Source: a virus | Direction: 5' to 3' (one strand) | DNA length: 43,430 nt | IMG/VR virus record: IMGVR_UViG_3300006792_000001 | Coordinates: 1-43,430 of that record | Shown: piece after piece, positions 5,522 through 28,218 of the stretch | Position numbering within the stretch: the stretch's first letter is position 1 | Layout: the number at the start of each line of letters is the position of its first letter | Translations under genes and position numbers: made by a program | Notes under the pieces: generated by a model | Database searches by the model: none | What the model was told of the DNA's origin: nothing | The model's input: only the letters and a program-made list of their open reading frames with translations

Positions 5522-5905
5522 ATGCCTTTGACTAACTTGTCCCGCGATCTTCTCAGTGATGCCATTATCGGTGGCACAACCTACGCCAAGCTGTCGAACG
5601 CTAACGCCAATCTGGGTGTCGGTGATAGCTCTACAGCCTTTGCCGCAACGCAGACCGACCTGATTGCGGCTACCAATAAACTACGCAAGGGGATGGACGC
5701 GACCTTCCCAACACGCGCCGCAAACGCGCTCACATTCCAGGCAACGTTTACATCGGCGGAAGCCAACTGGGTTTGGAATGAATGGGGTTTATTTAATAGC
5801 GCGACTGCGGGCAATATGTATTCAAGAAAGGTAGAAGCCTTAGGCACCAAAAGTTCAGGATCGACGTGGGAAATTTCTGTCTCGTCAACATTGACCCTGG
5901 CGTAG
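5522..5905 (+). CDS. Virion structural protein, tail fibre/appendage-like
   Basis: The 127-residue protein has the pattern GVGDSSTAFAATQTDLIAAT followed by TFPTRAANALTFQATFTSAE and VWNEWGLFNSATAGN. This matches a common small phage virion family seen near tail fibres. The C-terminal half is rich in Ser/Thr and beta strands. A GAAGGAG ribosome site precedes the ATG. It is the last plus-strand gene before the convergent lysogeny arm. Confidence 0.6.
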   Translation: MPLTNLSRDLLSDAIIGGTTYAKLSNANANLGVGDSSTAFAATQTDLIAATNKLRKGMDATFPTRAANALTFQATFTSAEANWVWNEWGLFNSATAGNMYSRKVEALGTKSSGSTWEISVSSTLTLA

Positions 5906-5916
5906 TTTTTGCCTAT

Positions 5917-5952
5917 GGTGGGTTGATTGAATCATACTACAACCAACCCACC
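5917..5952. repeat. Inverted repeat after the late operon
   Basis: GGTGGGTTG (5917-5925) pairs perfectly with CAACCCACC (5944-5952) across an 18-base loop, directly after the fibre-like gene. There is no T-run on its 3' side. A second small stem, AGGGC/GCCCT, lies further downstream near 6000. The 148 bases from 5906 to 6053 otherwise contain no gene. Confidence 0.6.
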
Positions 5953-6038
5953 CTCGCACTAACGTGCGCCTAACCACAGCCAACTCCACCCGAGCGCCAA
6001 GGGCGAACGGCCCTGCCAAGGCGCGAATTCTCCTTCCC

Positions 6039-6075
6039 GGAGTACCCCGGCCGTCATTGGCCGGGGTGCTCCTTT
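6039..6075 (+). terminator. Hairpin between convergent operons, likely terminator
   Basis: GGAGTACCCCGGCC (6039-6052) pairs with GGCCGGGGTGCTCC (6059-6072), a 14-bp stem with one G-T pair and a 6-base loop, followed by TTT. It sits where the plus-strand late operon meets the minus-strand operon and overlaps the last codons of the minus gene. The short T-run makes efficiency uncertain. Confidence 0.6.
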
Positions 6076-6287
6076 GTGCGGGCGGCGGTTGGTCGTCGAG
6101 GGGCTGGCTTGCGGACGCGAATGTAGCGCGCGATCTCCGAGCTCTCTATGAGCCAGTCGCGCCCGAGTTTCGTGGCCGTCAGTCGTTTGGCCTTTATGGC
6201 CTGGCGTAGCGTGTCCGGCATGATGCCAGCGCGCTCGGCAGCCTGCTTGAGCGTGAGAGGGTACATGTTGCCCTTGGGTTCGTCCAT
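6054..6287 (-). CDS. Excisionase/MerR-like helix-turn-helix protein
   Basis: This 77-residue DNA-binding protein has the segment LTLKQAAERAGIMPDTLRQA, a helix-turn-helix of the MerR/excisionase (HTH_17) type, followed by KLGRDWLIESSEIARYI, the usual wing. The C-terminus is basic. An AGGAG ribosome site lies 5 bases before the ATG at 6287. It is the last gene of the minus operon that starts near 7803. It could be the recombination directionality factor for the integrase or a small regulator. Confidence 0.7.
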   Translation of the reverse strand: MDEPKGNMYPLTLKQAAERAGIMPDTLRQAIKAKRLTATKLGRDWLIESSEIARYIRVRKPAPRRPTAARTKEHPGQ

Positions 6288-7550: not shown

Positions 7551-7760
7551 TTACGCGCACAACTCGCGGCGCTGGACAGTGATGGTTTCGTCACCGTCGT
7601 ACAGCCAGAGCGAGGCCGTCGCTCGCTCCACTGTGCCGCCACCGTTACGCGAGAGATACGTATTGGCGCGGGCGGTTGCGCCGGACTCGGACCTGCAGAC
7701 GGCGGCCAGTTCGCCGCCAATAATGACGACCCACACGGTCTCGATTCTTCCTGCTGCCAT
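7551..7760 (-). CDS. Hypothetical protein, first gene of the short minus operon
   Basis: The protein has 69 residues from the ATG at 7760, which has a GGGAGGG ribosome site; a longer frame begins at 7811 but would start too close to the promoter's -10 box. The sequence (AGRIETVWVVIIGGELAAVC; LWLYDGDETITVQRREL) looks like a small beta-rich domain. Function is unknown. Confidence 0.5.
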   Translation of the reverse strand: MAAGRIETVWVVIIGGELAAVCRSESGATARANTYLSRNGGGTVERATASLWLYDGDETITVQRRELCA

Positions 7761-7802
7761 GGTGGGGTTCCCTCCCGTATCGTCCAAACCGTCTATACCT
7801 AG

Positions 7803-7831
7803 AGTATACACTGCCTAGCGTAGCAGTGCAA
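7803..7831 (-). promoter_or_regulatory. Minus-strand promoter with a palindrome in its spacer
   Basis: Read on the minus strand there is TTGCAC, 17 bases, then TATACT (a 5-of-6 -10 box at 7803-7808). Most of the spacer is an inverted repeat, CACTGC/GCAGTG (7809-7814 and 7823-7828, 8-base loop), placed like a repressor operator. The promoter faces the operon 7760-6054. Which protein binds is unknown; the three XRE-type regulators here are candidates. Confidence 0.55.
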
Positions 7832-8096
7832 GGGGGTAGCACGGGCAATATCGAAGCCGGACCTTTGGGCTATGCGCTGGGTACGGCAACGATAACCAAA
7901 GAATAACCAATCGCCCTGCCGTAACGATTGTGGCGGTTAGTGGCCGGGTGTGGCTGTTTCGGCGGGAAGTCGCGGGAAACGGCGCAACGAATGCCGGATT
8001 GTGTCTCTCGGATTGACCGCTATTAGCCCGTCGCGACAAGTGGGAATTGTCGCCGGACGATGTGATTGAGGCTCTTAGAAGCGGAAACCTGGGAAA
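7832..8096. other. Non-coding region after integrase, candidate attP
   Basis: This gene-free stretch next to the integrase 3' end holds ordered repeats. TACGGCA (7882-7888) and TGCCGTA (7917-7923) form an inverted pair enclosing two direct ATAACCAA repeats (7892-7899 and 7903-7910, 11 bases apart), which look like arm-type or excisionase sites. GCGACAA-N7-TTGTCGC (8033-8053) has the geometry of tyrosine-recombinase core sites around a 7-base overlap. No tRNA gene fragment was recognised. Confidence 0.5.
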
Positions 8097-9287
8097 CTAA
8101 ACATCTTTTTTGAACGATTCGATAACCAGAGGCGTATCTGACGATCGTTCCAGCGCCTCGGCGGCGTCGCTGTCCATATCGTCATCTGGATGGCTATAGC
8201 GCCGCAGCGTGAAGGACACGTCGTAATGACCGAGCCGCTGCTGCACGACACGGGCAGGGACACCCGCGCGCATCAGATCAGTGGCGTTGGCATGCCGGAG
8301 ATCGTGCGGGCGCACGATGGGCACACCAGCCTCCCGGCATATCTTCGGGAACTTCACCCGCATGGTTGCGGCGCGTTGCCGGGCGCCCCGCTCTGACGGA
8401 AACATCCAGTCGGCATCGTTCCACCAGTCGCCGACCCGTTCGCGGTAGACGCGCTGGTTCTGGCGATACGTCTGGAGCGTGACAAGTGTCGCCTTCGATA
8501 ACGTCAACGTGCGCCGTCCGTAGCGGCTCTTGGGCGAGCCGACAATAATGCGCCCGTCCTCATCACGCGACTCACCCTCACGCACGGTGAGTTTGTTACT
8601 GAAGAGGTCATCCCAGCTGAGGGCGACCATCTCGCCGATACGCAGGCCGGTGGTGAGCATGAGCCGCCAGAACGCGCCGTCCCTGTGCGTCTCGCAGTGC
8701 GCCAGGAACATCTCGATCTGCGTGCGAGTCCAAACCGTGTACTCCGGCTCAATGTGGGCGGGTAGCTCGACGCCCTGGCCAGGATGCGCCGGGAGCATCA
8801 TCCACGCCACCGCATCGCCGAGCATCATATTGAGGATCGTCTGGTGGAGCCGGACGGTGTTTGGGTGATACGGGCCGTGGTCACGGTGGCGCTGGTCGGC
8901 GTTGAGGCGCGCCCCCGTCAACCGTTCGGCTTTCCACGCCAGAATAAGCGGCGCGTCTACCTTCGCCAGCGGCACGTGCCCCATGTAGGCCACAATCGAC
9001 TTGAGAGCGTTGCGATAGTTGCGCATGGCGCTTGGCTTCACGTCGCCGCGTTTCGCGTCCAGCCAGCGTTCGGCAAACTGCGCGACCGTGATCTTAGACG
9101 GCGCGATCAGCGTGCCCTCGGCCTGCTCGACCCTCAGTTTGTTGAGGCGCGCCCAGGCTGTGTCTTCGGTGGGATAGGTTTCCTGGATGGGGATGTACTT
9201 GCCGGTCACGGGGTCTTTGCCGCGCGGAAATTTCACACGCCAGGACGTGGCGGTTATGGCGTACACGTTACCCTTCGGTTTGGCCAT
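8097..9287 (-). CDS. int: Tyrosine-family site-specific integrase
   Basis: This 396-residue recombinase starts at ATG 9287 (MAKPKGNVY), which overlaps the upstream stop by ATGA. It has an N-terminal arm-binding domain, a SAM-like core-binding domain (TVAQFAERWLDAKRGDVKPS) and a catalytic domain: Arg in TTGLRIGEM (about 215), Lys near SPKSRYGRRTL, HDLRH (about 325), LGHYDVS and the nucleophile Tyr in LRRYSH (about 363). It would integrate and, with a directionality factor, excise the prophage. It sits at the end of the repressor operon, so it is probably also expressed in the lysogen. Confidence 0.93.
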   Translation of the reverse strand: MAKPKGNVYAITATSWRVKFPRGKDPVTGKYIPIQETYPTEDTAWARLNKLRVEQAEGTLIAPSKITVAQFAERWLDAKRGDVKPSAMRNYRNALKSIVAYMGHVPLAKVDAPLILAWKAERLTGARLNADQRHRDHGPYHPNTVRLHQTILNMMLGDAVAWMMLPAHPGQGVELPAHIEPEYTVWTRTQIEMFLAHCETHRDGAFWRLMLTTGLRIGEMVALSWDDLFSNKLTVREGESRDEDGRIIVGSPKSRYGRRTLTLSKATLVTLQTYRQNQRVYRERVGDWWNDADWMFPSERGARQRAATMRVKFPKICREAGVPIVRPHDLRHANATDLMRAGVPARVVQQRLGHYDVSFTLRRYSHPDDDMDSDAAEALERSSDTPLVIESFKKDV

Positions 9288-9772
9288 CAGCCGCCGCCCA
9301 CGCTGCCGGAGCAACTCGCGATGGTATATCCGCCGGATGACTCTGCCGTTTTCCAAAGTCTGCCGTCGAGGTAAATCTCGCATGTGACCGTGCCATCTTC
9401 GCTGCCGTTCTGTGCTGAGATGGATGCCACGTCGCCTGGACCCATCGTGACGTACTCAGTCCACGTGTTATTTATCCAGTTATCCCCCTTGAAATCCTCT
9501 TGCTGGGTGCCGCCTTGACCGTTGCGGTAAGTCACGCTCATGTTCTTGTTCTTCGTGATAATGACACGATATTGGATACGGTAGCTCTCTTGTGAATCCA
9601 CTGTATTCGCTGCGGCAACCGAGGACGTTGGCACACCACGCGCTTCGATCGTCGCGGCGACTCCGGCGGCAACTTGCGTTGCGATGCTGTCATCATTCGC
9701 CGCGCTTTGATCTTTGCTGCCGCACGCGGCGATCAGCCCTGCCAGTAACACCGCAATCAATAGCCAGCGCAT
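9287..9772 (-). CDS. Lipoprotein with MmpS-like domain
   Basis: This 161-residue protein has a lipoprotein signal (LLIAVLLAGLIAACGS, lipobox LIAAC) and a C-terminal beta domain (SYRIQYRVIITKNKNMSVTY; ISAQNGSEDGTVTCEIYLDG) with two Cys. It resembles the MmpS-type domain found on small surface lipoproteins. Its ATG overlaps the upstream stop. It lies between the ImmA-like protease and integrase in the lysogenic operon, so it may coat the lysogen's surface and block superinfection; that role is inferred. Confidence 0.65.
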   Translation of the reverse strand: MRWLLIAVLLAGLIAACGSKDQSAANDDSIATQVAAGVAATIEARGVPTSSVAAANTVDSQESYRIQYRVIITKNKNMSVTYRNGQGGTQQEDFKGDNWINNTWTEYVTMGPGDVASISAQNGSEDGTVTCEIYLDGRLWKTAESSGGYTIASCSGSVGGG

Positions 9773-10116
9773 CACTCACCCCAATCTGGAAACAACTCCG
9801 CAAACTCGGTCGCCTGTCGCTCGAATTTAGCCACAGTGACGTGGCCTTGTGGGCGCGTAGACCACCAATAGTTATTGCCCTTCTGTACGAAACGATGGCC
9901 GATTTCGTGCCATGCAGAGAGGCATTCAATAACAAACGGCAACCCTGCCTGAATAAACAGCTTGCCGTCCAGTAAGGCGGCGGCTCGTCCAAGCGGGAGG
10001 TTCCCCCGGATGACCCGGATACCGAGACGCTGAGCAAACAGCTCCCACTCATCAAACCAGTACACCCCGTACTTTGTCCGAGCGCGTTCCACCACCCCGT
10101 TCGTCACAGCCCCCAT
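9772..10116 (-). CDS. ImmA/IrrE-family metallopeptidase
   Basis: The 114-residue protein carries the zinc motif HEIGH within ECLSAWHEIGHRFVQKG and a downstream Glu-rich helix (ERQATEFAELF) that supplies the third ligand in this family. ImmA-type enzymes cleave the XRE repressor beside them to release lysogeny. Here the gene begins 3 bases after the repressor stop, so the pair is probably co-translated. The family link is strong; the substrate is inferred from adjacency. Confidence 0.8.
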   Translation of the reverse strand: MGAVTNGVVERARTKYGVYWFDEWELFAQRLGIRVIRGNLPLGRAAALLDGKLFIQAGLPFVIECLSAWHEIGHRFVQKGNNYWWSTRPQGHVTVAKFERQATEFAELFPDWGE

Positions 10117-10119
10117 GCG

Positions 10120-10557
10120 CTACCTCTCGTCGTCTTCCTGTTCTAGTGCCCTCAGCATTCTGATCGCGATACGCTGCTTCTCCGGCGTGATCTTATGCCC
10201 GCTTTCCAAGGCGTATTCGAGGAGCGGATTATCCGCTTCGTCCACCACATCCGGCGCTCCAGCGGGGTGTACTAATTCTCGTTTTCCAGTTTGAGTGTTC
10301 CAGTACGTATCAGGCGGCGGGGCAGGAGTGATGATCGTTACCTCGCGTCGACCGGCGCGGCGGCGCACCTCGTTGCGGTCGATACCAAGGGCGACCGCGA
10401 TCTTGTCGCAGTTGGCCTCTTCTGGAGTGCCGCGACCATTCACCCAATTACTTATCGCAGTGGATTTTAAGCCGGCGTTAGCAGCAAATTCCTGCTGTAA
10501 CCAACCCCGCGACTTGTATTGATCTTCCAGCCATTCCCCGAAAGTGAGTTCAGTCAT
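10120..10557 (-). CDS. XRE-family phage repressor (ImmR/cI-like)
   Basis: The protein has 145 residues from ATG 10557; a longer frame to 10602 runs into the control region. The N-terminal helix-turn-helix (LQQEFAANAGLKSTAISNWV) is typical of XRE repressors. The C-terminal part lacks the Ser/Lys self-cleavage domain of lambda cI, which fits control by the adjacent ImmA-like protease. The start has no good ribosome site but lies 7 bases after a -10 box, so the mRNA may be leaderless, as for lambda cI. Confidence 0.8.
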   Translation of the reverse strand: MTELTFGEWLEDQYKSRGWLQQEFAANAGLKSTAISNWVNGRGTPEEANCDKIAVALGIDRNEVRRRAGRREVTIITPAPPPDTYWNTQTGKRELVHPAGAPDVVDEADNPLLEYALESGHKITPEKQRIAIRMLRALEQEDDER

Positions 10558-10563
10558 CAACCC

Positions 10564-10569
10564 ACTATA
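10564..10569 (-). promoter_or_regulatory. -10 box of the repressor promoter
   Basis: TATAGT on the minus strand matches the -10 consensus at 5 of 6 positions and is only 7 bases from the repressor ATG. No convincing -35 box is seen at the right distance, as expected for a promoter needing activation. Transcription would begin at or next to the ATG. Confidence 0.45.
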
Positions 10570-10590
10570 AGGGGAATCTATCAAAAACGC

Positions 10591-10619
10591 TTGACTATTC
10601 ATTTGACTTCAGTTACACT
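10591..10619 (+). promoter_or_regulatory. Early rightward promoter
   Basis: TTGACT (10591-10596), a 17-base spacer and TACACT (10614-10619) form a good sigma-70-type promoter facing the Cro-like gene and the long early operon. The same -10 hexamer and spacing occur upstream of the capsid gene (28162-28190). One copy of a 13-base repeat lies across its spacer, so repressor binding there would block it. Confidence 0.75.
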
Positions 10620-10644
10620 CATCATATGGGATCATTTGACTTCA
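10599..10644. promoter_or_regulatory. Direct-repeat operators in the immunity region
   Basis: TCATTTGACTTCA occurs at 10599-10611 and again at 10632-10644, 33 bases apart (about three helical turns, so on the same DNA face). A third TTGACT overlaps the -35 box at 10591. They lie between the divergent repressor and Cro-like genes and are the best candidates for repressor/Cro operators. Confidence 0.65.
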
Positions 10645-10657
10645 AAAAGGGGACAAG

Positions 10658-10867
10658 ATGACATACGACCGCCAGCGCCTCAGAGAGATTCTGGAAGTCC
10701 AGGGGCGCCGCAAAGACTGGCTCGCAAAGCAAACCGAATATTCGATTGAACACGTGAGCCGCGTCCTTTCCGGCTCGATGCCTATGACCGAGAAATTCGC
10801 GGTGAAAGCTGCCATCGCACTCGGCATCCCTCTGCACTGGCTGCAAGAGGATCGGGTGGCGGCATGA
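10658..10867 (+). CDS. Cro-like XRE helix-turn-helix protein
   Basis: This 69-residue single-domain DNA-binding protein has a helix-turn-helix in KDWLAKQTEYSIEHVSRVLS. It is the first gene of the early operon, divergent from the repressor, with an AGGGGA ribosome site. Its position and size fit Cro or an early regulator. It overlaps the next gene by ATGA. Confidence 0.75.
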   Translation: MTYDRQRLREILEVQGRRKDWLAKQTEYSIEHVSRVLSGSMPMTEKFAVKAAIALGIPLHWLQEDRVAA

Positions 10868-11313
10868 TCGTTAAGACCCTCATTAGCCCCAGTATACGTA
10901 GTACGTACGCGGCTTTCCCTGTGCAGGCTGTCAGTAATCCTGACAGTGCTGTCACCACCAGCCACGACCTGCGCGCCGACGCAAACAGTGTGTTTGACCG
11001 GCTGGTCGACCAGCTCGACGCGCTGCACGAACGCATCACGGCGCTTGAGGCACAACAGGCCGAGCCCGCGCCCGGCGTCGTTGCCTTTGCCGAGTCGCGG
11101 CGGGTGTGGACCACACGCGAGCTCGCGGACGACCTGGGCATACACGTAAATACTGTGCGCAACTGGACGGCCCTTCCTCCCGACCACCGCATGCACCTGG
11201 ATTGTCTGCGGCTTGACCAGCAGATGCGCTTCCTCCCCGAGCATGTCGCCGATTGGCTGTCCCGAAACGTAAGCCGGTTGCCGCTGGACAAATCCCGGAA
11301 CGTGGCGGCATGA
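10864..11313 (+). CDS. DNA-binding protein, HTH_17-like
   Basis: The 149-residue protein has a coiled-coil-like middle (VDQLDALHERITALEAQQ) and a C-terminal helix-turn-helix (WTTRELADDLGIHVNTVRNW) followed by MRFLPEHVADWLSR, the usual pattern of MerR/excisionase-like domains. It is co-translated with the Cro-like gene (ATGA). It is probably an early regulator. Confidence 0.6.
   Translation: MIVKTLISPSIRSTYAAFPVQAVSNPDSAVTTSHDLRADANSVFDRLVDQLDALHERITALEAQQAEPAPGVVAFAESRRVWTTRELADDLGIHVNTVRNWTALPPDHRMHLDCLRLDQQMRFLPEHVADWLSRNVSRLPLDKSRNVAA
10928..10946. repeat. Inverted repeat inside the HTH_17-like gene
   Basis: CTGTCAG (10928-10934) and CTGACAG (10940-10946) form a perfect 7-bp inverted repeat with a 5-base gap, followed by another CTGTCA half-site. 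It is operator-like and close to the early promoter, but it lies in coding sequence and no binder is known. Confidence 0.4.
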
Positions 11314-11525
11314 ACATGATCATCCTTCCGTTTTCCGTACTCGCCTCTCGACTAACCCCGCGCCACGGTGACGTGCCCCCGCGCGTCACCGCCACGACTG
11401 AGGCCCCGAGTCATCGTTGGCGTTCTCCCGCGATGATCCTGAGCCTCAGTCGTGGCCGTGAGCCACAGAGTGCGACTTGCCCGATACCGAGAGGACAAAC
11501 TATCGATCGAGACCATGCACGATGA
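11310..11525 (+). CDS. Doubtful small ORF over a hairpin cluster
   Basis: This frame of 71 codons starts at an ATG overlapping the upstream stop (ATGA), but its translation is rich in Arg, Pro and Ser and looks unlike a folded protein. It coincides with two strong inverted repeats. Either the overlap is chance and the stretch is a structural DNA/RNA element, or a short coupled peptide is made. Confidence 0.25.
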   Translation: MNMIILPFSVLASRLTPRHGDVPPRVTATTEAPSHRWRSPAMILSLSRGREPQSATCPIPRGQTIDRDHAR

Positions 11526-11567
11526 GATGTTCGTACGGGCGGGTTATCCCCCAAAGTCGCCCGCCCG
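11367..11567. repeat. Cluster of three inverted repeats (structured region)
   Basis: There are three successive hairpins. GGTGACG/CGTCACC spans 11367-11390. GCCACGACTGAGGC (11391-11404) pairs perfectly over 14 bases with 11443-11456 and encloses an inner TCATCG/CGATGA stem. CGGGCGGG/CCCGCCCG spans 11536-11567. None is followed by a T-run. Between the early regulators and gene 11627 this region has weak coding character, so it may be a structured RNA, an antitermination element or a DNA site. Confidence 0.7.
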
Positions 11568-11626
11568 ATTCCAGTGTAACGGCGTTTGTGCCGTTGCGTA
11601 TATACCCGCACCAGATTGGAGGAGAC

Positions 11627-11944
11627 ATGGCCCGCTTGACACCCATCACGACCCGCATGGCCGAGCTGACGATGGATTTGTACGCACAGGCGTACAGCCT
11701 GGCAACCCGTGACGGCGCAATCAGCCGTGATGAGAACGTACTGCTGCTCGGCATTCAGCGTTTGCGCAGCGACACCGAACGGCTCGACATCAGTCGCCGG
11801 ATTGGACGCACAGTTGAAGACGCCGGCGAACTGACACCGCACGCACTGAGGATGGGACGCGAGCTTGAGCGGGATTTGACGCCGATCCTGGCGCTGAGTA
11901 AGAACTACCCACGGTCGACCGAGTTTGAACCGGAAATTGCCTGA
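11627..11944 (+). CDS. Hypothetical early protein, 105 residues
   Basis: The ATG at 11627 is preceded by a strong GGAGGAG, which selects it over an upstream in-frame start at 11477. The protein is helical and polar (TPITTRMAELTMDLYAQAYS; LRMGRELERDLTPILALSKN). No family is recognised. Confidence 0.65.
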   Translation: MARLTPITTRMAELTMDLYAQAYSLATRDGAISRDENVLLLGIQRLRSDTERLDISRRIGRTVEDAGELTPHALRMGRELERDLTPILALSKNYPRSTEFEPEIA

Positions 11945-11983
11945 AGCCCGCGCTAACGGGCCTCGGGCTGATCTAGGAACGAG

Positions 11984-12358
11984 ATGAATCAAATGGATAG
12001 TACCAAAGATAGCAACATCAGCGCAATTGCCATCGCACGGCTACGAGCCCTGCCAACCACACAGGCAGAGGCCGTGACATGGCTTGAGGGCATGCTGGCG
12101 GCGGAGGACGCCGCGTTGGGAGCCACTGTGCGAAAGGCTATGCGGACCACCTATCCCAGCACGCTGCCACAGGCCGTAGCCCGCATTGAAAGCCTGATGG
12201 CTGTCAAGAACGACGCAGTGACGGCCGCCCTGGGACGTGTGCGGCGCGTTGAGGACGCAGCCGAACGCGCCGAGCGGTATGCCGACTACAGGCGGCTGAT
12301 GGGTGAGGCGGAAGGCGTCCGGCAGGCGCTGATTGAGATCAGTGGAGGCCAGGCATGA
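11984..12358 (+). CDS. Hypothetical helical early protein, 124 residues
   Basis: It is almost entirely alpha-helical, with many Ala, Glu and Arg residues (TQAEAVTWLEGMLAAEDAAL; VRRVEDAAERAERYADYRRL). An AGGAACGAG ribosome site precedes the ATG. It overlaps the DUF4326 gene by ATGA. Function is unknown. Confidence 0.65.
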   Translation: MNQMDSTKDSNISAIAIARLRALPTTQAEAVTWLEGMLAAEDAALGATVRKAMRTTYPSTLPQAVARIESLMAVKNDAVTAALGRVRRVEDAAERAERYADYRRLMGEAEGVRQALIEISGGQA

Positions 12359-12642
12359 CAGCAACAACGTTTAAACGCACCCGCGTCATCAACATCAAGA
12401 CGCATGGCCAGCCGGATATCTACATCGGCCGACCATCGCGCTGGGGCAACCCGTACGTTATCGGCCGCGACGGAAACCGCGATGAGGTCATCGCCAAATA
12501 CCGTGACTACGTACTCAACACGCCGGAGCTGATGGCTGTTATCCACACACTCCAGGGCAAGACGTTAGGGTGTTTTTGTGCGCCGTTACCCTGCCATGGG
12601 CAGATTCTCGCGGAGCTGGCAGATGGCGAGGCCTACTCATGA
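12355..12642 (+). CDS. DUF4326 family protein
   Basis: The 95-residue protein has the hallmarks of this phage/bacterial family: PSRWGNPYVIGRDGNRDEVI, then GKTLGCFCAPLPCHGQILAE, with a Cys/His cluster that could bind metal. The family's biochemical role is unknown as far as I know. It is translated as part of the early operon, overlapping both neighbours. Confidence 0.8.
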   Translation: MTATTFKRTRVINIKTHGQPDIYIGRPSRWGNPYVIGRDGNRDEVIAKYRDYVLNTPELMAVIHTLQGKTLGCFCAPLPCHGQILAELADGEAYS

Positions 12643-12839
12643 GCGAGGACGAACGCATGAGCGAACTCGAAACACAGGTCGCCGCGCTCACCGATGTGTT
12701 GTGGGAGCAGTTGCAGGACAACGTTCGCAGGGCACGCACGCCGGCGGGCCGTGGAGGATGGAACGAACTCCAGCACCGCATCGACACGACATGGTTCGCC
12801 CGTTTCGACCGGCCCGGACAGAGAGTGGGGCGGTCATGA
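12639..12839 (+). CDS. Hypothetical protein, 66 residues
   Basis: The ATG overlaps the upstream stop. The protein is acidic at the N-terminus and helical (SELETQVAALTDVLWEQLQD), then basic. Overlaps at both ends support translation. No function is recognised. Confidence 0.55.
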   Translation: MSEDERMSELETQVAALTDVLWEQLQDNVRRARTPAGRGGWNELQHRIDTTWFARFDRPGQRVGRS

Positions 12840-13093
12840 CGGGTACGGACGTTGTGTATGTCACCTATCGGGGCCGGGAATTCATGTTAGGGGCCGCCCA
12901 GGACGATGAGGGACTGTATGGCCTGACCTACTACGAGAAGGACAGACCGGAAAACCAGCGCAGTGATGACATCCAGTGGGTATTTGTCTATAGCCACGGC
13001 CTGCATATCTACAGAAACCGTGTAGACATGTTTTCAAGCGCCCTCGACGACCTGCTTGTGTACGTGGACAACAACGCAGAGGCCGCGTCATGA
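12836..13093 (+). CDS. Hypothetical protein, 85 residues
   Basis: This beta-rich acidic protein (TDVVYVTYRGREFMLGAAQD; IQWVFVYSHGLHIYRNR) overlaps both neighbours by ATGA. The start at 12836 was chosen over a long upstream extension that overlaps two genes. Function is unknown. Confidence 0.6.
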   Translation: MTGTDVVYVTYRGREFMLGAAQDDEGLYGLTYYEKDRPENQRSDDIQWVFVYSHGLHIYRNRVDMFSSALDDLLVYVDNNAEAAS

Positions 13094-13326
13094 GCCGCAT
13101 CATCCACCCGTTCCCAAAAGGAGCCACCCGGCAACCGCGAGCATCACGCCGGTCGGTGACGTTCACACTGGCCGCCACCGGCGAGCTGCTGGCCGAGGGC
13201 GTTGACCCCGCCGACGTGACGGCGCTGATGGGGCGCTATTGGGAGCTACACGGTCGCGGTGCTGTGCATGTCACGTACCGCCGGATGCGGCGCGGCGAGG
13301 CTTACAAGGAGGTCATAGATGGCTAA
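13090..13326 (+). CDS. Hypothetical basic protein, 78 residues
   Basis: This Arg-rich, probably nucleic-acid-contacting small protein (PRASRRSVTFTLAATGELLA; HVTYRRMRRGEAYKEV) overlaps the next gene by 8 bases. No family is recognised. Confidence 0.55.
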   Translation: MSRIIHPFPKGATRQPRASRRSVTFTLAATGELLAEGVDPADVTALMGRYWELHGRGAVHVTYRRMRRGEAYKEVIDG

Positions 13327-13666
13327 ACCGCTAAACGACTATGTGACGGCAGATGGCGTGATCCTCGCGCAGACTGTCGAGACGCTCACCAACATCATCC
13401 GCACCGACTGGCGGGACACGGATGCAATGCGCGAGGGACTCATCACGTTGTTACTGTGGAGCCCGAAAAAATGGGGCGAACGCTATGTCCTGTGTACGCC
13501 CATGGGGCAATGGGACATGCAGTCCTTCAGACGACGGCTGAATGCCCGCGGACAGTGTGAGGTCCGCAACGAGGACCTTATTGCAGCTCTGACCCGTCCA
13601 TTGGTGGATTGGTCAGTTGCACCAGGGACAACTGACCCGCTACTCGACCTGCTGGTGACGACATGA
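13319..13666 (+). CDS. Hypothetical protein, 115 residues
   Basis: The protein is mixed helical (TVETLTNIIRTDWRDTDAMR) with a Trp-rich middle (LLWSPKKWGERYVLCT). An AAGGAGG ribosome site lies before the ATG, inside the previous gene. Function is unknown. Confidence 0.6.
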   Translation: MAKPLNDYVTADGVILAQTVETLTNIIRTDWRDTDAMREGLITLLLWSPKKWGERYVLCTPMGQWDMQSFRRRLNARGQCEVRNEDLIAALTRPLVDWSVAPGTTDPLLDLLVTT

Positions 13667-13857
13667 GCTTTAGCCTGATGGCTGGCGCCGCACCCGACGA
13701 TCGCCCCTGCTTTACGTGCCTGCGGCCCGAACAGGAATGCATCTGCCCGCCTGTTGACAGCGAGTATGAGGCATATCTGGTTTGGTTTCGATCGGCCGTC
13801 GACCGTGGGGAGATTACTGGCGGACTGGAATATGAGGACATGGAGCTGGTGCGATGA
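13663..13857 (+). CDS. Small Cys-rich protein, 64 residues
   Basis: It has the zinc-knuckle-like segment CFTCLRPEQECICPP near the N-terminus, then an acidic helical tail (YEAYLVWFRSAVDRGEITGG). It overlaps both neighbours by ATGA. It may bind zinc; role unknown. Confidence 0.55.
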   Translation: MSFSLMAGAAPDDRPCFTCLRPEQECICPPVDSEYEAYLVWFRSAVDRGEITGGLEYEDMELVR

Positions 13858-14108
13858 GCGACACAACGATTGAGATTGAGCACGACGAATGTATCCAGAT
13901 TAGCTGTGAGGACCTGTGCGTCCTGATTGCCTGGATGGCTGGAAGGATGCCTCTCTCGACAGCGATAGGAGCGATGCAAATCGGGCATCGTTACCGCGCA
14001 AAAGGGTACGACCAACAAACGGATTTTTTGATCGATCTGGTGAACACCGCTGTGGTTGCTGGCGAGAGCCTGGCGAACGATGGCCATGCACTGGCGGCAC
14101 GGTCATGA
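13854..14108 (+). CDS. Hypothetical protein, 84 residues
   Basis: This acidic N-terminus (TIEIEHDECIQISCEDLCVL) is followed by hydrophobic helices and a short basic stretch. No family is recognised. It is translationally coupled to both neighbours. Confidence 0.55.
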   Translation: MSDTTIEIEHDECIQISCEDLCVLIAWMAGRMPLSTAIGAMQIGHRYRAKGYDQQTDFLIDLVNTAVVAGESLANDGHALAARS

Positions 14109-14248
14109 GTGACACAACTCTTGTCACAATCGCGACGTACCTCATCGTGCTGCAGGTGGCCTCGGTTGTGACCTATGTTGTGTGCCTGCTGCTGCATGTG
14201 ACAGGGCTACTGGCCCGCATAATCCACTGGCTTGAGAGAGGGAAATAG
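14105..14248 (+). CDS. 47-residue membrane peptide
   Basis: The ATG overlaps the upstream stop. One long hydrophobic segment (TYLIVLQVASVVTYVVCLLL) could span the membrane once or fold as a hairpin; the end is basic (WLERGK). An early membrane peptide may alter the host envelope, but the function is unknown. Confidence 0.5.
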   Translation: MSDTTLVTIATYLIVLQVASVVTYVVCLLLHVTGLLARIIHWLERGK

Positions 14249-14512
14249 ATGAGGCTTGAACGAATCGTTGCATTACACCACCGGCTACAAGAGAACGGGC
14301 ACATCACGCAGGAAGAATACGATCTGCTGAATGTTTTCGAGGAAATTAATCCACGCTTGGCTGAACGCGCGGCATTGAGAGTCGCGAGGCACGCCCTCGT
14401 AACCCTGAACGGCCTGTTCGCAGCCGATGGCGCCGCTCCGGAGCTGAGATGGCACATAGACGAGACAAAGACGCTAGCCATTATTGATGCGGCTCTAGGG
14501 GAAGGGAAATAG
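14249..14512 (+). CDS. Hypothetical helical protein, 87 residues
   Basis: The gene starts right after the upstream stop, with a GAGAGAGGG ribosome site. The sequence is helical (RIVALHHRLQENGHITQEEY). It has no visible motif. Confidence 0.55.
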   Translation: MRLERIVALHHRLQENGHITQEEYDLLNVFEEINPRLAERAALRVARHALVTLNGLFAADGAAPELRWHIDETKTLAIIDAALGEGK

Positions 14513-14513
14513 C

Positions 14514-14777
14514 ATGCCATGGACTGAAGCCGACCACATCGCCGAACACGCGCGACTCGCGTTACTGGCCAACGCTCACGGGCATGCCCTACGCAACGTG
14601 CTGAGTATCGTGCAAAGAGCGGTTTATTGCCTCTACCCTGACACCACGATATTCGCAAGTTCGGACCGAGAGGACCGAGCGTATCTCGACAACTTGCGAA
14701 ACGAACTGGACAAGATTTTTGACGCTCTCATAGCGGCCGAGATAGCCAGCACATCGCCGGAGGAGGAGACAGCATGA
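14514..14777 (+). CDS. Hypothetical helical protein, 87 residues
   Basis: A GGGAAGGG sequence precedes the ATG. The protein is helical and acidic at its end (LRNELDKIFDALIAAEIAST). It overlaps the next gene by ATGA. Function is unknown. Confidence 0.55.
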   Translation: MPWTEADHIAEHARLALLANAHGHALRNVLSIVQRAVYCLYPDTTIFASSDREDRAYLDNLRNELDKIFDALIAAEIASTSPEEETA

Positions 14778-14995
14778 CCGCAAGCATCGGCCGGCCGTCT
14801 CGCTCCGCTGGCATCACCCGCAATCAGCTCGCGCGCATAGACAGACTGGCGCGCGAGACTGGCATGGACGCACAGCTGGCGGCGCGGCGTCGCTTTGGCG
14901 GGCCGTTGCAGAGACTGAGCAGAGCAGAGGCCAGCGCACTGATTGATTCGCTTGTACTGATTATGGCATGGACTCCGAAGGGAGGGACAGGATGA
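14774..14995 (+). CDS. Small recombination-associated helical domain
   Basis: The 73-residue protein contains ITRNQLARIDRLARETGMDA, then ARRRFGGPLQRLSRAEASAL. I know this pattern as a short module often attached to phage recombination or replication proteins, where it may contact DNA. Here it stands alone just upstream of the annealing protein. The assignment is tentative. Confidence 0.5.
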   Translation: MTASIGRPSRSAGITRNQLARIDRLARETGMDAQLAARRRFGGPLQRLSRAEASALIDSLVLIMAWTPKGGTG

Positions 14996-15213
14996 AGAAG
15001 CTAACAAACGAAACAGCGGCACAGCGCAGCTATACAAATCAATCCCTGATTGACGCGGGCTTGGCGCTACTGCCGGCGCTAACCGGAGTCAACTACACAG
15101 GCATCGAAATGGCACGGATCGAGAAGCTCGGCATGCACCAGCGGCCACCGGCTGCGGTCGCAGAGGCCGTCAAGGCAGCTGTACAAGCACGACGGGGAGG
15201 GACAGTCCAATGA
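14992..15213 (+). CDS. Hypothetical protein, 73 residues
   Basis: The ATG overlaps the upstream stop. The sequence ([37 protein letters not shown]) is helical. It is coupled to the annealing-protein gene. Function is unknown. Confidence 0.55.
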
Positions 15214-16211
15214 GTACCAACAACAATGCGGTAGCAACGATCTCACCATCCGAGATGGGCCATAGCAGTGGTTACGACCGCGAACAGGTTGACCTTATCA
15301 AGCGCACAGTAGCAAAGGACTGCGATGACTTGGAGCTACAGCTATTCATCGCCACCTGTGAGCGCACAGGGCTCGACCCGATAGCCAAGCAAATCTACGC
15401 GGTGAGCCGCTACACCAAGCAGGCTGGTCGCAAGGTCATGACGATCCAGACCAGCATTGATGGCTTTCGAGTCATTGCCTCACGCGTCAAGGTTGACGGC
15501 GAGCGGGTCTATGCCGGACAGCTCGGGCCTTTCTGGTGTGGGAAAGATGGCAAGTGGGTCGAGGTCTGGTTGGCGGATGATCCGCCTGCGGCCGCAAAGG
15601 TTGGGGTGTTGCGCAGCGACTGGCGCGAACCACTCTGGTCAGTGGCACGCTACGAGAGTTACGCGCAGAAAAACCAGGATGGTTCCGCACAAAATCTCTG
15701 GGGCAAGATGCCGGACCTGATGATTGCTAAGTGCGCAGAAAGTTTGGCCCTACGGCGAGCATTTCCTCAGGAACTATCAGGACTCTTAACCTCAGACGAG
15801 ATGGGACAAGCAAGCAACACGGGCACGGGGCAGCAGCAGACGGTGGAGTATGACCACGATCACGCCAAAGACCAGCATTTCCGGAAACATCTAGCGGTCC
15901 TCAAAGAGGTTGCCCCGCAACGCGAGCCAGCGCCCGTAGTAGACGCCGAGACAGGTGAAATCACCGACACACCGAAACCGGAACGACAGCGCCTGTCTGA
16001 CAACGCCATCTTGCGTCTGGAGGAGTTGGCTACACAGGCCGGCATCGAGTTTGAGCAGATGAGCGAGGACGCGGTGCTGCGGTACGAAAAAGCGGACTAC
16101 ATCTGGCTCAGTAAGGCCGAGGCCACCGACTACGCGGCCTTATTGAAGGAGCTGATTGAGGGGAAGGATGCGGTAGGCGTCGAGACTGAGCAGGAGTTGG
16201 CCGAGGTTTAG
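15210..16211 (+). CDS. Bet/RecT-family single-strand annealing protein
   Basis: The 333-residue protein has a Bet/RecT core in residues about 25-205: [62 protein letters not shown] and [17 protein letters not shown]. Such proteins pair complementary single strands during phage recombination. The C-terminal 125 residues are acidic and may recruit partners. No partner 5'-3' exonuclease was found, which is unusual for this family. Confidence 0.88.
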
Positions 16212-16221
16212 ACAAAAGGAT

Positions 16222-16247
16222 GCGCGGCGGACCACTATCCGCCGCGC
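16222..16247 (+). terminator. Strong hairpin after the annealing gene
   Basis: GCGCGGCGGA pairs with TCCGCCGCGC, a perfect 10-bp stem with a 6-base loop, 10 bases after the stop codon. There is no T-run, so it is more likely an mRNA-stability or pause element than a classical terminator. Confidence 0.5.
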
Positions 16248-16283
16248 TCGTGTATCGACGCCAGATTACAAAGGTTATGCCAC

Positions 16284-17261
16284 ATGAGCGTCAAGCAGAT
16301 GAGTAAAGTCTGGTCACTGGACCTCCCACACAACCAGTTATGGGTACTGATGGCGTTGGCCGACTACGCGGACGATGACGGGTACTGCTGGCCCAGTGCG
16401 CCGAAGCTTGCTCACAAGACAGGCTACAGTGAACGTCAGATTCGCCGCCTGGTTGACGGCCTCATAGAGGGTGGGACCATCTTCCAGAACCAGCGTGACG
16501 GACGCAGTTCAGAGACGTGGTTGAAGCTCGATAATGCGCCGGGCAAGGCAGCATTTACCCCTGACAAAATGACAGGGGGTAAAGGTGCTTCTTCCATTAA
16601 TACCCCTGACATAGCTATGTCACCCCTTACCCCTGCCAAAATGTCAGGCCACCCCTGCCAAAATGTCACCCCTACCCCTGACATTTTGTCCGCTACCCCT
16701 GACATAGCTATGTCACCCATAACCATCAGTAACCAGTCAGTTGAACCAATCAAGGAACCATCAGAACCGAGTGCCTCGGTTGCGAGGCGAAAAGAAAAAC
16801 CACAAGACCCACTTTTCAACGCCATCGCTGAGGCGTGGAAGGGCGAACCCTACCGGCCCGGTTTGTTAACCAGGGGGCAGGCGTCGCTAGTCGGCATTGC
16901 GGCAGCTGAGTTACGGGAGGTTGGCGCAATGCCTGAAGACGTGCCGGGTGAGTGGCAGCGCATCAATGCCAAGTACGACGACATTTCGCCCAAAGCCTTA
17001 TCTCAGCATTGGGGTACTACGGGATCAAGGCGTGCAACTGTAGCAGCTCGTGCCTCACCACCCGACATCGACTCTATCCGCGATCCGTTTATGCGTGCAC
17101 TGATTCGGCAAGGAGGCCAGGATGCCAGTACCACAGACGACATTCACGCGCAAAATGGGCGAGTTATCGACCAGCATGCCAAAACGAAATCTCTCGGACC
17201 CGGAGTCGAATCTCATGGCACAAACCTACCAGCGCATGCTCGCGACGCACGACGAGGCTGA
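16284..17261 (+). CDS. Replication initiator, lambda O-like, with internal origin
   Basis: The 325-residue protein begins with a winged-helix DNA-binding domain (QLWVLMALADYADDDGYCWP; LAHKTGYSERQIRRLVDGLI). Its middle (residues about 92-145) is a low-complexity linker with repeated TPD/TP motifs encoded by the iteron cluster. The C-terminal half is a helical domain (LTRGQASLVGIAAAELREVG) that may contact a helicase loader. The layout, with the origin inside the initiator gene and a loader-like gene next, matches the lambda O-P plan. Confidence 0.75.
   Translation: MSVKQMSKVWSLDLPHNQLWVLMALADYADDDGYCWPSAPKLAHKTGYSERQIRRLVDGLIEGGTIFQNQRDGRSSETWLKLDNAPGKAAFTPDKMTGGKGASSINTPDIAMSPLTPAKMSGHPCQNVTPTPDILSATPDIAMSPITISNQSVEPIKEPSEPSASVARRKEKPQDPLFNAIAEAWKGEPYRPGLLTRGQASLVGIAAAELREVGAMPEDVPGEWQRINAKYDDISPKALSQHWGTTGSRRATVAARASPPDIDSIRDPFMRALIRQGGQDASTTDDIHAQNGRVIDQHAKTKSLGPGVESHGTNLPAHARDARRG
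16557..16715 (+). repeat. Iteron cluster, candidate replication origin
   Basis: Six repeats share the core ACCCCTG(A/C)CA, starting at 16557, 16602, 16629, 16651, 16674 and 16695. The last four are spaced 22, 23 and 21 bases, about two helical turns. Several end in TGTCA, and two contain the palindrome GACATAGCTATGTC. The cluster lies in the linker-coding part of the initiator gene, as in lambdoid origins, so the encoded protein probably binds it. The following bases are moderately AT-rich. Confidence 0.8.
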
Positions 17262-17760
17262 CTTTATCGAGGGTTGCGACCGCATTCTCTGGACCGACGA
17301 ATGGTTCCCAACCATCGCCCGGCTTTCTGGCGTGATTGCCGAGTGCGCCGCCGAGCGTGAGTCACACCAGCGCGCCGCCCGGCTGACGACCGGACGCGAG
17401 TCTAACGGCGGGCTGGTTTGTGGTCACTGCCTGGGCGCGCGTTGGTTACGCAACGGTTTGCACCATGGACTGATTGCTTGCCCAGGCTGCTCCTACGAGG
17501 GCAAGTTTAATCCGCTGACGGAATCGGCAAGCATCGCACGTTATGGCGGCGTTGTGCCGGAGGGTTTTGATACTGGCAGGCGGGCGGATGTCTCGGCGTT
17601 GCATGCGCCGTTTCGTGATGCAGACGGGTCGACTGACATGGACCAACTCTATCGGTTTTCAAGAGAACTCAGAGGCCTCGAGCCAGCGATTGACGAACGC
17701 ACCAAACCGGCGGCGGGATTCAGCACGATCGGCGACGTTGCGCGGTTGGTGACAGCCTAG
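17122..17760 (+). CDS. Candidate helicase loader with zinc-binding domain
   Basis: The protein has 212 residues. The ATG at 17122 has a strong AAGGAGG ribosome site, which supports a real 140-base overlap with the initiator gene. Residues about 33-75 (YQRMLATHDEADFIEGCDRI, WFPTIARLSGVI) resemble the G39P-type helicase-loader fold. A Cys4 zinc site follows (VCGHCLGARWL ... ACPGCSYEG). No AAA+ ATPase motif is seen. As partner of the initiator it would recruit the host helicase; this is inferred. Confidence 0.45.
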   Translation: MPVPQTTFTRKMGELSTSMPKRNLSDPESNLMAQTYQRMLATHDEADFIEGCDRILWTDEWFPTIARLSGVIAECAAERESHQRAARLTTGRESNGGLVCGHCLGARWLRNGLHHGLIACPGCSYEGKFNPLTESASIARYGGVVPEGFDTGRRADVSALHAPFRDADGSTDMDQLYRFSRELRGLEPAIDERTKPAAGFSTIGDVARLVTA

Positions 17761-20054: not shown

Positions 20055-20380
20055 TAAACCATGCCGCCACAGACCGTACAAAACGGCTGGCAGCCATATG
20101 CAAACAGTTAGCAAACCGTGGAGACGGAATCGTCTCGCTGCTGGGCAAGGACGATTTGTACTGGCTGCTAGGTGAGGTCAACCGTCTGCACACCATGCTG
20201 GCCGATGCACAGGCCAGAGTCGATCGGTTACGTAAGACGCACCGTCACAAGGATCGCCGCATTATGCGGTTGAGTGACGTACTGCGAGAGATCGGCCAAC
20301 TGGACTTAGAGGATGACGAGGGCTACGGGTTGATTGCCGAACTCGCCCGCGCCGCCCTGAATGAGGAGGCCGGAGAATGA
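20051..20380 (+). CDS. Coiled-coil protein, first of a duplicated pair
   Basis: The 109-residue helical protein has a heptad-like centre (LLGEVNRLHTMLADAQARVD) and an acidic segment LDLEDDEGYGLI. The region RIMRLSDVLREIGQLDLEDD reappears, changed at a few positions, in the next gene. It is coupled to both neighbours. Function is unknown. Confidence 0.6.
   Translation: MINHAATDRTKRLAAICKQLANRGDGIVSLLGKDDLYWLLGEVNRLHTMLADAQARVDRLRKTHRHKDRRIMRLSDVLREIGQLDLEDDEGYGLIAELARAALNEEAGE
20222..20336 (+). repeat. Diverged 115-base direct repeat, copy 1
   Basis: This segment and 20401-20515 have the same length and align without gaps, from GATCGGTTACGT to GGGTTGATTG. The C-terminal part of the repeat is nearly identical in DNA and protein. 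It is a segmental duplication that gave rise to the shared motif of two consecutive genes. Confidence 0.75.
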
Positions 20381-20682
20381 GCGCCATGACAGAGGAAAAC
20401 GATCGGTTACGTGAGGTGATCCTTCACAAGGAACTGCGCATTATGCGGTTGATGAACGCACTGCGGGAGGTCTTCAAACTGGACTTAGAGGATGATGAGG
20501 GCTACGGGTTGATTGACGCTCGCGAGATGGTCACCGGCATCGCCTCCGCGCTGCAACTGTCGGACGTGGAGCGCGTTGGTCTGTACGCCGCTGCCGGGAT
20601 GATTCCTACTGGGATGGCCTGTACCGTTATCGTGACCGGCGGCCGGGTGATGCTGGTCGGGCTAGGAGAATCAACGCCATGA
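20377..20682 (+). CDS. Hypothetical protein, second of a duplicated pair
   Basis: The 101-residue protein starts with the duplicated segment (RIMRLMNALREVFKLDLEDD) and then differs, with a hydrophobic beta-rich C-terminal half (GMACTVIVTGGRVMLVGLGE). It overlaps both neighbours by ATGA. Function is unknown. Confidence 0.6.
   Translation: MSAMTEENDRLREVILHKELRIMRLMNALREVFKLDLEDDEGYGLIDAREMVTGIASALQLSDVERVGLYAAAGMIPTGMACTVIVTGGRVMLVGLGESTP
20401..20515 (+). repeat. Diverged 115-base direct repeat, copy 2
   Basis: This copy is offset by 179 bases from copy 1 (20222-20336). The changes concentrate in the 5' third. Confidence 0.75.
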
Positions 20683-24109: not shown

Positions 24110-25349
24110 CCTGCCCAATCCGCACGCTGGGCAGAGGCGGGTCATTGCGGAATCTCGCAGATTCAATGTTGTGAACTTAGGCCGAAGAGCAGGAAAAACC
24201 ACGCTCGGCATTGACCGCGCCGTAGAGCAGATGTTGCAAGGCTACCCAGTGGGTTGGTTCAGTCCGACATATAAAATGCTGTCCGAAGTCTGGCGGGATG
24301 CCAAGCGCATCCTGCGGCCAATTATCAGGACGATCTCCGAACAAGACAAGCGCATTGAGCTGCTAACCGGCGGCCAGATCGACTTCTGGTCGTTGGATAC
24401 GCCGGACGTGGCTCGCGGCCGCCGGTACAAGCGGGTGGTCATCGACGAGGCGGCCATGATCCGCGCACTGGAACAGGCGTGGACTGAAGTTCTCCGGCCA
24501 ACTCTGACCGACTATGAGGGTGATGCGTGGTTCCTGTCCACACCCAGGGGCCGTAATTATTACTGGACGCTCTACCAGCGTGGCCAGGACAACACCTACC
24601 CTGAGTGGATGAGCTGGTCTATGACAACAGCCGCAAACCCGTTCATCAATCCTGCTGAGATTGAGGCGGCGCGTCTTGAACTACCCGAACGTGCCTACCT
24701 ACAGGAGTACATGGCGGTATTTATCGAAGATGGTGCGGGAGTCTTCCGCCGGGTGCGGGAGGCTGCTACCGCCGAGCCACAGGAAGCGCCTTTGCCAGGG
24801 CACCAGTACGTGTTCGGCGTTGATTGGGGCAAAACGCAGGACTGGACGGTTATCGCGGTGATAGACGTGAACACACGCGAGCTGGTCTACATGGATCGGT
24901 TCAACCAGATCGACTACCAGATTCAGTTAGGGCGTCTCTCGGCGCTGCATAGCCGCTTTAACCCGTCCGTTGTTATCCCCGAGCGCAACAGCATCGGCGA
25001 GCCACTTATCGAGCAGCTTCAACGTTCGGGGATACACATGATTCCGTTCCAGACGACGAACGCAACCAAAGCTGTGGCCATTGACGCGCTGGCGCTGGCG
25101 TTTGAGCGGGGCGACCTAAAAATAGTCAATGACCCGATCCTCATCAACGAATTGCAGGCCTACGAATCCGAACGATTGCCGTCCGGTTTGTTGCGTTACA
25201 ACGCGCCCCGAGGACAACATGACGATTGCGTGATGGCGCTGGCGCTGGCATGGCAGGCGGCAAGCGTGCCACCCGCCGCGTCGGTTGCTATTTCCTCGGA
25301 TACCCGTGACACCTACGCGCCTAGCAGGACAGGAGCACTCTGGACATGA
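24090..25349 (+). CDS. terL: Terminase large subunit
   Basis: The 419-residue packaging motor has Walker A GRRAGKTT (residues 31-38) and Walker B VVIDEAAM (about 115-122), then STPRGRN as coupling motif. The RNase H-like nuclease follows: FGVDWGKTQDW (about 244), VVIPERNSIGEP and HDDCVMALALAW (about 380) supply the acidic metal ligands. It cuts and pumps DNA into the prohead with TerS and the portal. Whether it uses cos or headful cutting cannot be told from sequence alone. Confidence 0.95.
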   Translation: MTTLTINLPNPHAGQRRVIAESRRFNVVNLGRRAGKTTLGIDRAVEQMLQGYPVGWFSPTYKMLSEVWRDAKRILRPIIRTISEQDKRIELLTGGQIDFWSLDTPDVARGRRYKRVVIDEAAMIRALEQAWTEVLRPTLTDYEGDAWFLSTPRGRNYYWTLYQRGQDNTYPEWMSWSMTTAANPFINPAEIEAARLELPERAYLQEYMAVFIEDGAGVFRRVREAATAEPQEAPLPGHQYVFGVDWGKTQDWTVIAVIDVNTRELVYMDRFNQIDYQIQLGRLSALHSRFNPSVVIPERNSIGEPLIEQLQRSGIHMIPFQTTNATKAVAIDALALAFERGDLKIVNDPILINELQAYESERLPSGLLRYNAPRGQHDDCVMALALAWQAASVPPAASVAISSDTRDTYAPSRTGALWT

Positions 25350-26788
25350 GTACATGGGACACCATCAGGGGCTGGTTCGGGTTTGCACCGCTGGCCGAAT
25401 CGATCATGATTGATAGCGACGACTACCTGTATCGGCCGCTTACCAGCCGGGCTACATCCGACCTGCCACAGCATCAGCACGACAGGATGCTCAAAATCGC
25501 CGCGCATCTGGACCGCTCCAACCCGGTTGCTAAACGCATCATGGACCTCTTGACAGATTTCGTCTTTGCCGAGGGAGTACAGATCACGTGCCGTAATGCT
25601 GAGGTTGAGAAATTACTACGCGATCATTGGGACGACCCGGTGAACGATTGGGACGCACGCGGCCCGAGGATGTTTCGCCTGCGCCTGCGCGATGGTGAGA
25701 TCGTCATGCCTGCCGGGGTCAACGAGGTGGATGGCGCGGTGCGTTGGGGCATGATTCCCAGCCGCATGGTCAAGGAGGTGCGTCCGGACCCGCTCAACTG
25801 GGAGATCGTCCGCTCGGTGATCCTCATGCCAGAGACAACCGAGCGTGAGGGCCGTAATCTGGCGGTTATCAACGAGCAGCCTGAGTCCGGTCGGCTTGAG
25901 GGCGAGTGTGTGTTTCTGAAGATCAACGATGACGGTTTGCGCGGCATCTCAATGCTCTACCCGCTGGCGGATTTTCTCGACTCGCTCAATACCATGGCGT
26001 TTTCCGAGGTGGATCGAGCGCAGATGGTGCGGGCGTTTGTCTGGGATGTGACGATCAATGGCGCAACTCCGGACGACCTCAAGGGCTACGCGCAAGACCC
26101 AAACTATTCCGCGCCGCGTCCCGGTAGCGCGCGAATCCACAATGAGAATGTGACGTACCAGGCACTAGCGCCGCAACTCAATTCGTACGATGCGACCGAG
26201 CTGATGGGCTGGGTTCTCAACACGCTGATCCTCGGGAGTGTTGGCGTTCCCGAGCACTGGTTTGGATCGGGCGGCGATGTGAATCGCGCAGTGGGCGCGG
26301 TGATGGAAACCCCAACGATCAAAATGTTGTCACGGCTGCAACGCGACTGGCAGCAGGTTATGAGCGACGTGCTGCGCTACGTGGTCGACCAGGCCGTTAT
26401 CCACGGCGCGCTCCCGGCACAGGTAGCCGTCGAGAATGCGGACGGCAAGCGGACCGGCGAGATGATAGACCCGCGTCTGGCTTTTGAGGTGGTGGCTCCG
26501 GATATGGATACGACGGACATGACGCAACTGGCGGCCACTGTCGTGCAGGTGACGCAGGCGCTGGTCATTGCCGAGCAGCAGGAGTACACCAGTAAGGCCA
26601 CCGCGCGCGCCATCTTTAGCGCCATTGCCCAACAGCTCGGACCGGACATTGACCCGGATGAAGAAGCCGAGAGGATCGCGAATCAGACCGAACAGCGCGA
26701 GAAGGAGGGTGATGTCCCGGAGCGGGTGGCAAACGAGATCGAACGCGCAATGGCGAACGGCAAGCGCGACAAGGAGCGGGTAGCGTAG
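25346..26788 (+). CDS. Portal protein
   Basis: The 480-residue protein directly follows TerL (ATGA overlap). It shows portal features: an N-terminal region (LKIAAHLDRSNPVAKRIMDL), a wing with beta segments (FRLRLRDGEIVMPAGVNEVD) and a long stem helix area (VDQAVIHGALPAQ), ending in an acidic helical crown. A dodecamer forms the DNA gate of the head. Confidence 0.85.
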   Translation: MSTWDTIRGWFGFAPLAESIMIDSDDYLYRPLTSRATSDLPQHQHDRMLKIAAHLDRSNPVAKRIMDLLTDFVFAEGVQITCRNAEVEKLLRDHWDDPVNDWDARGPRMFRLRLRDGEIVMPAGVNEVDGAVRWGMIPSRMVKEVRPDPLNWEIVRSVILMPETTEREGRNLAVINEQPESGRLEGECVFLKINDDGLRGISMLYPLADFLDSLNTMAFSEVDRAQMVRAFVWDVTINGATPDDLKGYAQDPNYSAPRPGSARIHNENVTYQALAPQLNSYDATELMGWVLNTLILGSVGVPEHWFGSGGDVNRAVGAVMETPTIKMLSRLQRDWQQVMSDVLRYVVDQAVIHGALPAQVAVENADGKRTGEMIDPRLAFEVVAPDMDTTDMTQLAATVVQVTQALVIAEQQEYTSKATARAIFSAIAQQLGPDIDPDEEAERIANQTEQREKEGDVPERVANEIERAMANGKRDKERVA

Positions 26789-27640: not shown

Positions 27641-27652
27641 GAGGACAGGCCC

Positions 27653-27895
27653 TTGACACTCATTGCCTACTTTCTCACGATCATCGCCGCACTATCCGCG
27701 TTCGCTGTGTATTTCGACCTCCTGGTGTTCGCCGGCTTGCATCTCGAACGATCGCGGGCGAAGCGCGAACGGGCGCAACGGCTGGCTCGTTATGTGGCCG
27801 GTGTTGAGGAGGGGCGCAAGGCGGCGGCACAGGCAGCGTACAAGGAGGTGCGTCCGGAGCCTAGCGCTGAGACGATTCGGAATAGCCACGCATGA
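27653..27895 (+). CDS. Small membrane protein with cytoplasmic basic helix
   Basis: The protein has 80 residues from a TTG start preceded by GAGAGGACAGG. One N-terminal membrane span (LIAYFLTIIAALSAFAVYFD) is followed by a charged helix (LERSRAKRERAQRLARYVAG). It lies between head genes. Function is unknown. Confidence 0.55.
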   Translation: MTLIAYFLTIIAALSAFAVYFDLLVFAGLHLERSRAKRERAQRLARYVAGVEEGRKAAAQAAYKEVRPEPSAETIRNSHA

Positions 27896-27978
27896 CGCTG
27901 TATTATGTGCGGCTTTACCTTAATGCCCTGCTGAGTCGCCTCGTCGTGTGGATTATGGAGCGGCGTACGCCATCATGA
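27892..27978 (+). CDS. 28-residue membrane peptide
   Basis: The translation MTLYYVRLYLNALLSRLVVW ends in a short basic tail. ATGA overlaps at both ends (27892-27895 and 27975-27978) argue for coupled translation. It is a putative single-span peptide of unknown role. Confidence 0.45.
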   Translation: MTLYYVRLYLNALLSRLVVWIMERRTPS

Positions 27979-28160: not shown

Positions 28161-28161
28161 T

Positions 28162-28190: not shown

Positions 28191-28218
28191 CGGACAATAC
28201 TAGCCCAGAGTGCCCTTC

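Follow-up and report, generated by a model that had tools for sequence, protein, structure and literature searches.

What is the purpose of an intercistronic gap, some 313 nt long, in the early rightward operon of an uncultured phage, where overlaps of the ATGA type between neighbouring genes are the rule? It is this rule that makes the gap conspicuous. The window analysed is the whole phage record, 43,430 bases in length. Its first 123 bases (1-123) are exactly identical to the last 123 (43308-43430), and the contig G001 (IMGVR_UViG_3300025721_000002), 99.98% identical, spans the junction of the two ends; the genome is therefore circularly complete at 43,307 bp, despite the classification of the record as linear. 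The phage is temperate and has a tyrosine integrase and a repressor. The same contig stops exactly at 7668 and 17408 and does not contain 7669-17407, i.e. the entire integrase-immunity-early-RecT module, which suggests either a variable module or an assembly break.

The gap is located behind a Cro-like and an Xis/HTH-like gene (Table 1). It is followed by small genes, the first of which (11627-11944) gave no known family in the family search, and then by genes for RecT-type annealing and O-like replication proteins. The early operon also encodes a DUF4326 protein (12355-12642, E = 2.2e-25), and its next intergenic gap carries a short GC hairpin at 11945-11962 (GCCCG-CGCTAA-CGGGC). On the lysogeny side, the gene at 9287-9775, between the integrase and a small repressor-adjoining gene, encodes a lipoprotein-like start (LIAACGSKD) and is possibly expressed by the prophage.

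Table 1. Position of the hairpins, the C-rich stretch and the surrounding genes within the window
Feature	Position	Strand	Remarks
Tyrosine integrase	8097-9383	-	
Repressor	10120-10602	-	
Promoter-like site, early rightward operon	10591-10619	+	TTGACT, 17 nt, TACACT; consensus match only, 0.6 expected by chance
Cro-like HTH gene	10658-10867	+	phrog_2328 and phrog_2439, E about 1e-6
Xis/HTH-like gene, immediately 5' of the gap	10864-11313	+	phrog_66 excisionase and regulator, E = 3.4e-5
Weak ORF, 71 aa, spanning H1 and H2	11310-11525	+	ATGA overlap with the preceding stop
C-rich, G-poor rut-like stretch, right behind the Xis-like stop codon	11313-11398	+	windows of 54 and 78 nt
Intercistronic gap, about 313 nt, apparently untranslated	11314-11626	+	six-frame codon scores noncoding; folding z -6.3
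H1, 10-11 bp, CCCC loop	11366-11391	+	-19.8 kcal/mol
H2, 14-bp perfect stem, internal loop and inner 6-8-bp stem	11386-11461	+	-48.6 kcal/mol
H3, 8-9-bp GC stem	11534-11569	+	-19.2 kcal/mol alone
H4, 8 bp with one G-U	11576-11597	+	-13.5 kcal/mol
Next gene, 105 aa, preceded by GGAGGAG	11627-11944	+	codon score 0.24, usual for genes here

The initial annotation had described three inverted repeats in 11367-11567, and all three are found at that place. The 14-bp repeat with its inner 6-bp stem (H2) and the 8-bp repeat (H3) agree with the description; the supposed 7-bp repeat (H1) is present, but its size had been understated, as it comprises 8 perfect base pairs (11366-11373/11384-11391) and is lengthened to 10-11 bp by one G-U pair. 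A fourth hairpin, H4, lies outside the range given and had been overlooked. The perfect stem of H2 is formed by 11391-11404/11443-11456 and its inner TCATCG/CGATGA stem by 11411-11416/11431-11436; the 31-nt arms are 84% complementary, with about 22-27 paired positions. The perfect arms of H3 are 11536-11543/11560-11567. In the inspected folds the loops are CCCC in H1, 6 nt inside H2, 8 nt in H3 and GUUUGU in H4.

The hairpins are real and far above chance. Among 1000 dinucleotide shuffles of 11314-11626, none reached a stem of at least 14 bp and none contained three stems of at least 8 bp, while the folding z against shuffles is -6.7 for 11360-11575 and -6.3 for the whole gap. Only one repeat in the 43-kb window, of 16 bp and close to the putative origin, is longer than the 14 bp of H2. 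In the ensemble of 11290-11760, pair probabilities are about 1.0 for H1 (except the outermost pair), 0.93-1.0 for H2 and 0.89-0.99 for H4; the value for H3 is 0.14, other pairings competing with it in longer folds. The search for tRNA and tmRNA genes found none, and Rfam gave no family match at the gathering score. Riboswitch-like switching by alternative pairings (e.g. 11301-11308 with 11389-11396) has been rejected, the probability of such pairings being about 0.

Repeats are also found elsewhere in the genome: (i) at 16607-16715, within the O-like replication gene, clustered repeats, both inverted and direct (TGACATAGCTATGTCA, CAAAATGTCA), that resemble a lambda-type origin; (ii) at 42548-42663, among the tail genes, a pair of imperfect 50-bp repeats (88%) that fold strongly; (iii) a tandem-like 126-bp duplication, 82% identical, at 20221-20346 and 20400-20523, across two small adjoining ORFs.

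The weak ORF noted initially as not resembling protein does exist at 11310-11525, and the coding statistics bear out that judgement. With codon statistics trained on 16 genes of the same phage, the Xis-like gene scores 0.13 and the gene at 11627 scores 0.24, as against -0.088 for ORF 11310, -0.14 for ORF 11452 and -0.21 for ORF 11477. Among in-frame gene windows ORF 11310 ranks at the 1.5th percentile, and 14% of shuffles do at least as well. Its GC content by codon position is 0.62/0.61/0.58, versus 0.63/0.46/0.68 in the genes, and the family search gave no match for it. On these grounds the gap 11314-11626, noncoding in its codon scores in all six frames, is probably untranslated and ORF 11310-11525 is probably not a gene; it is possibly a coupled leader ORF, because its start overlaps the stop of the Xis-like gene by ATGA.

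The second characteristic element of the gap is a C-rich, G-poor stretch, on which the initial annotation is silent. The best 54-nt window (11313-11366) has a C minus G value of 16 and belongs to the top 0.5% of early-operon windows, whereas the best 78-nt window (11321-11398) has a C/G ratio of 2.31 with a C every 11-13 nt and belongs to the top 0.8%. The latter passes step 1 of RhoTermPredict (criteria of PMC6407284). The prediction of rut sites is weak in general: in E. coli the program predicts about 24,000 of them (PMC6407284). In this phage, 15 plus-strand clusters have a C/G ratio of at least 2, and in the ensemble no more than about half of the C-rich stretch is free of pairing. Candidate pause hairpins are found in the 150 nt that follow the rut window, H2 largely and H3 wholly downstream of it, while H1 overlaps the window. 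The claim that T-runs are missing also stands, as no terminator-like T-run, and no hairpin with T-run (intrinsic) terminator, is found in 10400-12400; in 1-40000 such terminators are fewer than in shuffles.

A scan of both strands for C-rich windows with exceptional structure behind them returned four places: the gap (z -3.9), 5937 on the plus strand at the end of the late operon (z -4.0), 6128 on the minus strand (z -3.8) and, weaker, 33791 on the plus strand (z -2.7). The site at 6128 is the opposite strand of the same convergent junction as 5937. The signature thus recurs mainly at the convergent end of the late operon, where transcription must stop, which points to a role as a mark of termination in this phage; the scan is supporting rather than decisive, since its thresholds were picked after the element had been seen. 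The late operon end itself, at 5905-6080, combines C-rich RNA with long GC hairpins and has no predicted T-run terminator.

The gap is best read, at a probability somewhat short of even, as an untranslated structured segment of the early rightward transcript that attenuates or terminates transcription in cis, comparably to lambda nutR/tR1. From the hairpins, the missing coding signal, the C-rich stretch and the position we infer transcription of the gap, an action of Rho on it and its regulation. The steps would be as follows: the ribosome would depart after the Cro-like and Xis-like genes; the C-rich, G-poor RNA (11313-11366 and on) would become exposed to Rho; and H1 and H2 (with H3 and H4) would stall RNA polymerase. 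The hairpins may additionally protect the upstream mRNA at its 3' end or assist in its processing there, and the replication and recombination genes would be limited in expression unless the phage goes lytic. The element probably controls how far the first genes of the virus are transcribed.

The lambda terminator tR1 comes from the nutR-cro region (PMC3526286). The gap shares with nutR/tR1 of lambda (and H-19B) the place after a cro-type gene, a rut-like stretch, hairpins and the absence of a T-run. It differs in that, allowing 1 mismatch, the gap and its vicinity have no boxA (CGCTCTTTA-like), the boxB hairpin, a short stem with a purine-rich pentaloop, is not represented among the loops of H1-H4, and no N-like protein has been identified; moreover, the hairpins of this phage are far longer.

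RNase III stems occur in phage early leaders, such as the lambda pL leader and T7 early mRNA. The gap has in common with them a long duplex with an internal loop in an intergenic position; cleavage is here putative. The main rival to attenuation is accordingly an element of mRNA processing or stability, in which the H2 duplex would be a cleavage site of RNase III or a similar enzyme and the hairpins would protect the regulator mRNA and set it apart from the downstream early mRNA, with no stop of transcription. The extent of pairing in H2, interrupted by an internal loop, and its location between two gene groups agree with such a role, but the C-rich stretch would be left unexplained. As a sufficient account it is unlikely; as a function of H2 it is compatible with attenuation.

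An element of processive antitermination that RNA polymerase or a phage protein would recognise, either a put-like two-stem RNA or a nut site, is improbable. The initial annotation had considered a structured regulatory RNA or an antitermination element; a non-protein, structured element of the early operon, probably RNA, is upheld by the coding statistics, the folding z and the place after the Cro-like and Xis-like genes, whereas the nut/put label is not. The put site of HK022 is about 70 nt long and comprises a pair of stem-loops that follow the early promoters (PMC9378689). The likeness to putL/putR, namely two adjoining stem-loops (H1 and H2) in the early transcript, is loose: H1 and H2 together span about 91-96 nt, their stem anatomy is different, and their distance from the promoter-like site is about 750 nt, where put has about 270 nt or less. 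A second copy of the element was not found within the 43,430-base window. Comparison with HK022 25000-32500, where the put sites are not annotated, gave only chance matches of 10-13 nt, and boxA is absent nearby. Termination or attenuation is preferred to antitermination because the rut-like C-rich stretch precedes the hairpins.

It is quite improbable that ORF 11310-11525 is a true small gene or encodes a leader peptide, coupled translation of which would melt H1 and H2 and hide the rut stretch. The ORF follows the overlap rule of the operon, covers H1 and H2 exactly, stops before H3 and has an intermediate score; its low percentile, the equal scores of shuffles, the raised GC at codon position 2 and the lack of a family argue against it. 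A small trans-acting RNA, made from the early transcript or from its own promoter, would suit a compact, stable and noncoding gap, but is very improbable, as no promoter-like site or T-run terminator lies within or beside the gap and Rfam has no match. Very unlikely too is a DNA-level site (for protein binding or single-strand initiation) or the fossil remnant of a palindromic insertion: the arms of H2 are long and the hairpins fold well on the opposite strand, but the element has a single genomic copy, no flanking target duplication is seen by eye, an origin-like repeat cluster already exists at 16607-16715, and the wobble pairs that lengthen the stems number four in plus-strand RNA (H1 and H4 one each, H2 two) as against two on the minus strand, the last being a weak point.

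The search for relatives covered several levels. DNA searches with the gap and its flanking genes gave nothing usable in phages and plasmids; the flanking proteins gave nothing usable in viral contigs, nor did two of them in known phages or in 50 related records. For the integrase, viral contigs yielded no relative and plasmids distant ones only. Exact H2 arms are absent from the viral contigs searched; about 120 loci matching the 14-base H2 arm alone were rejected, since blastn found nothing further in common. Scanning of genome contigs for RecT yielded three loci with RecT relatives, none of them syntenic with this region.

A new class of structured early-operon RNA, from an undersampled phage lineage and with a switching mechanism unlike N-nut, put or Q, has a slim chance. 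The sequence is new, the kind of element familiar. If the gap is an attenuator, phages of a poorly studied host would resemble lambda in controlling early genes by a stop of transcription behind cro, though by means of a different, heavily structured RNA.
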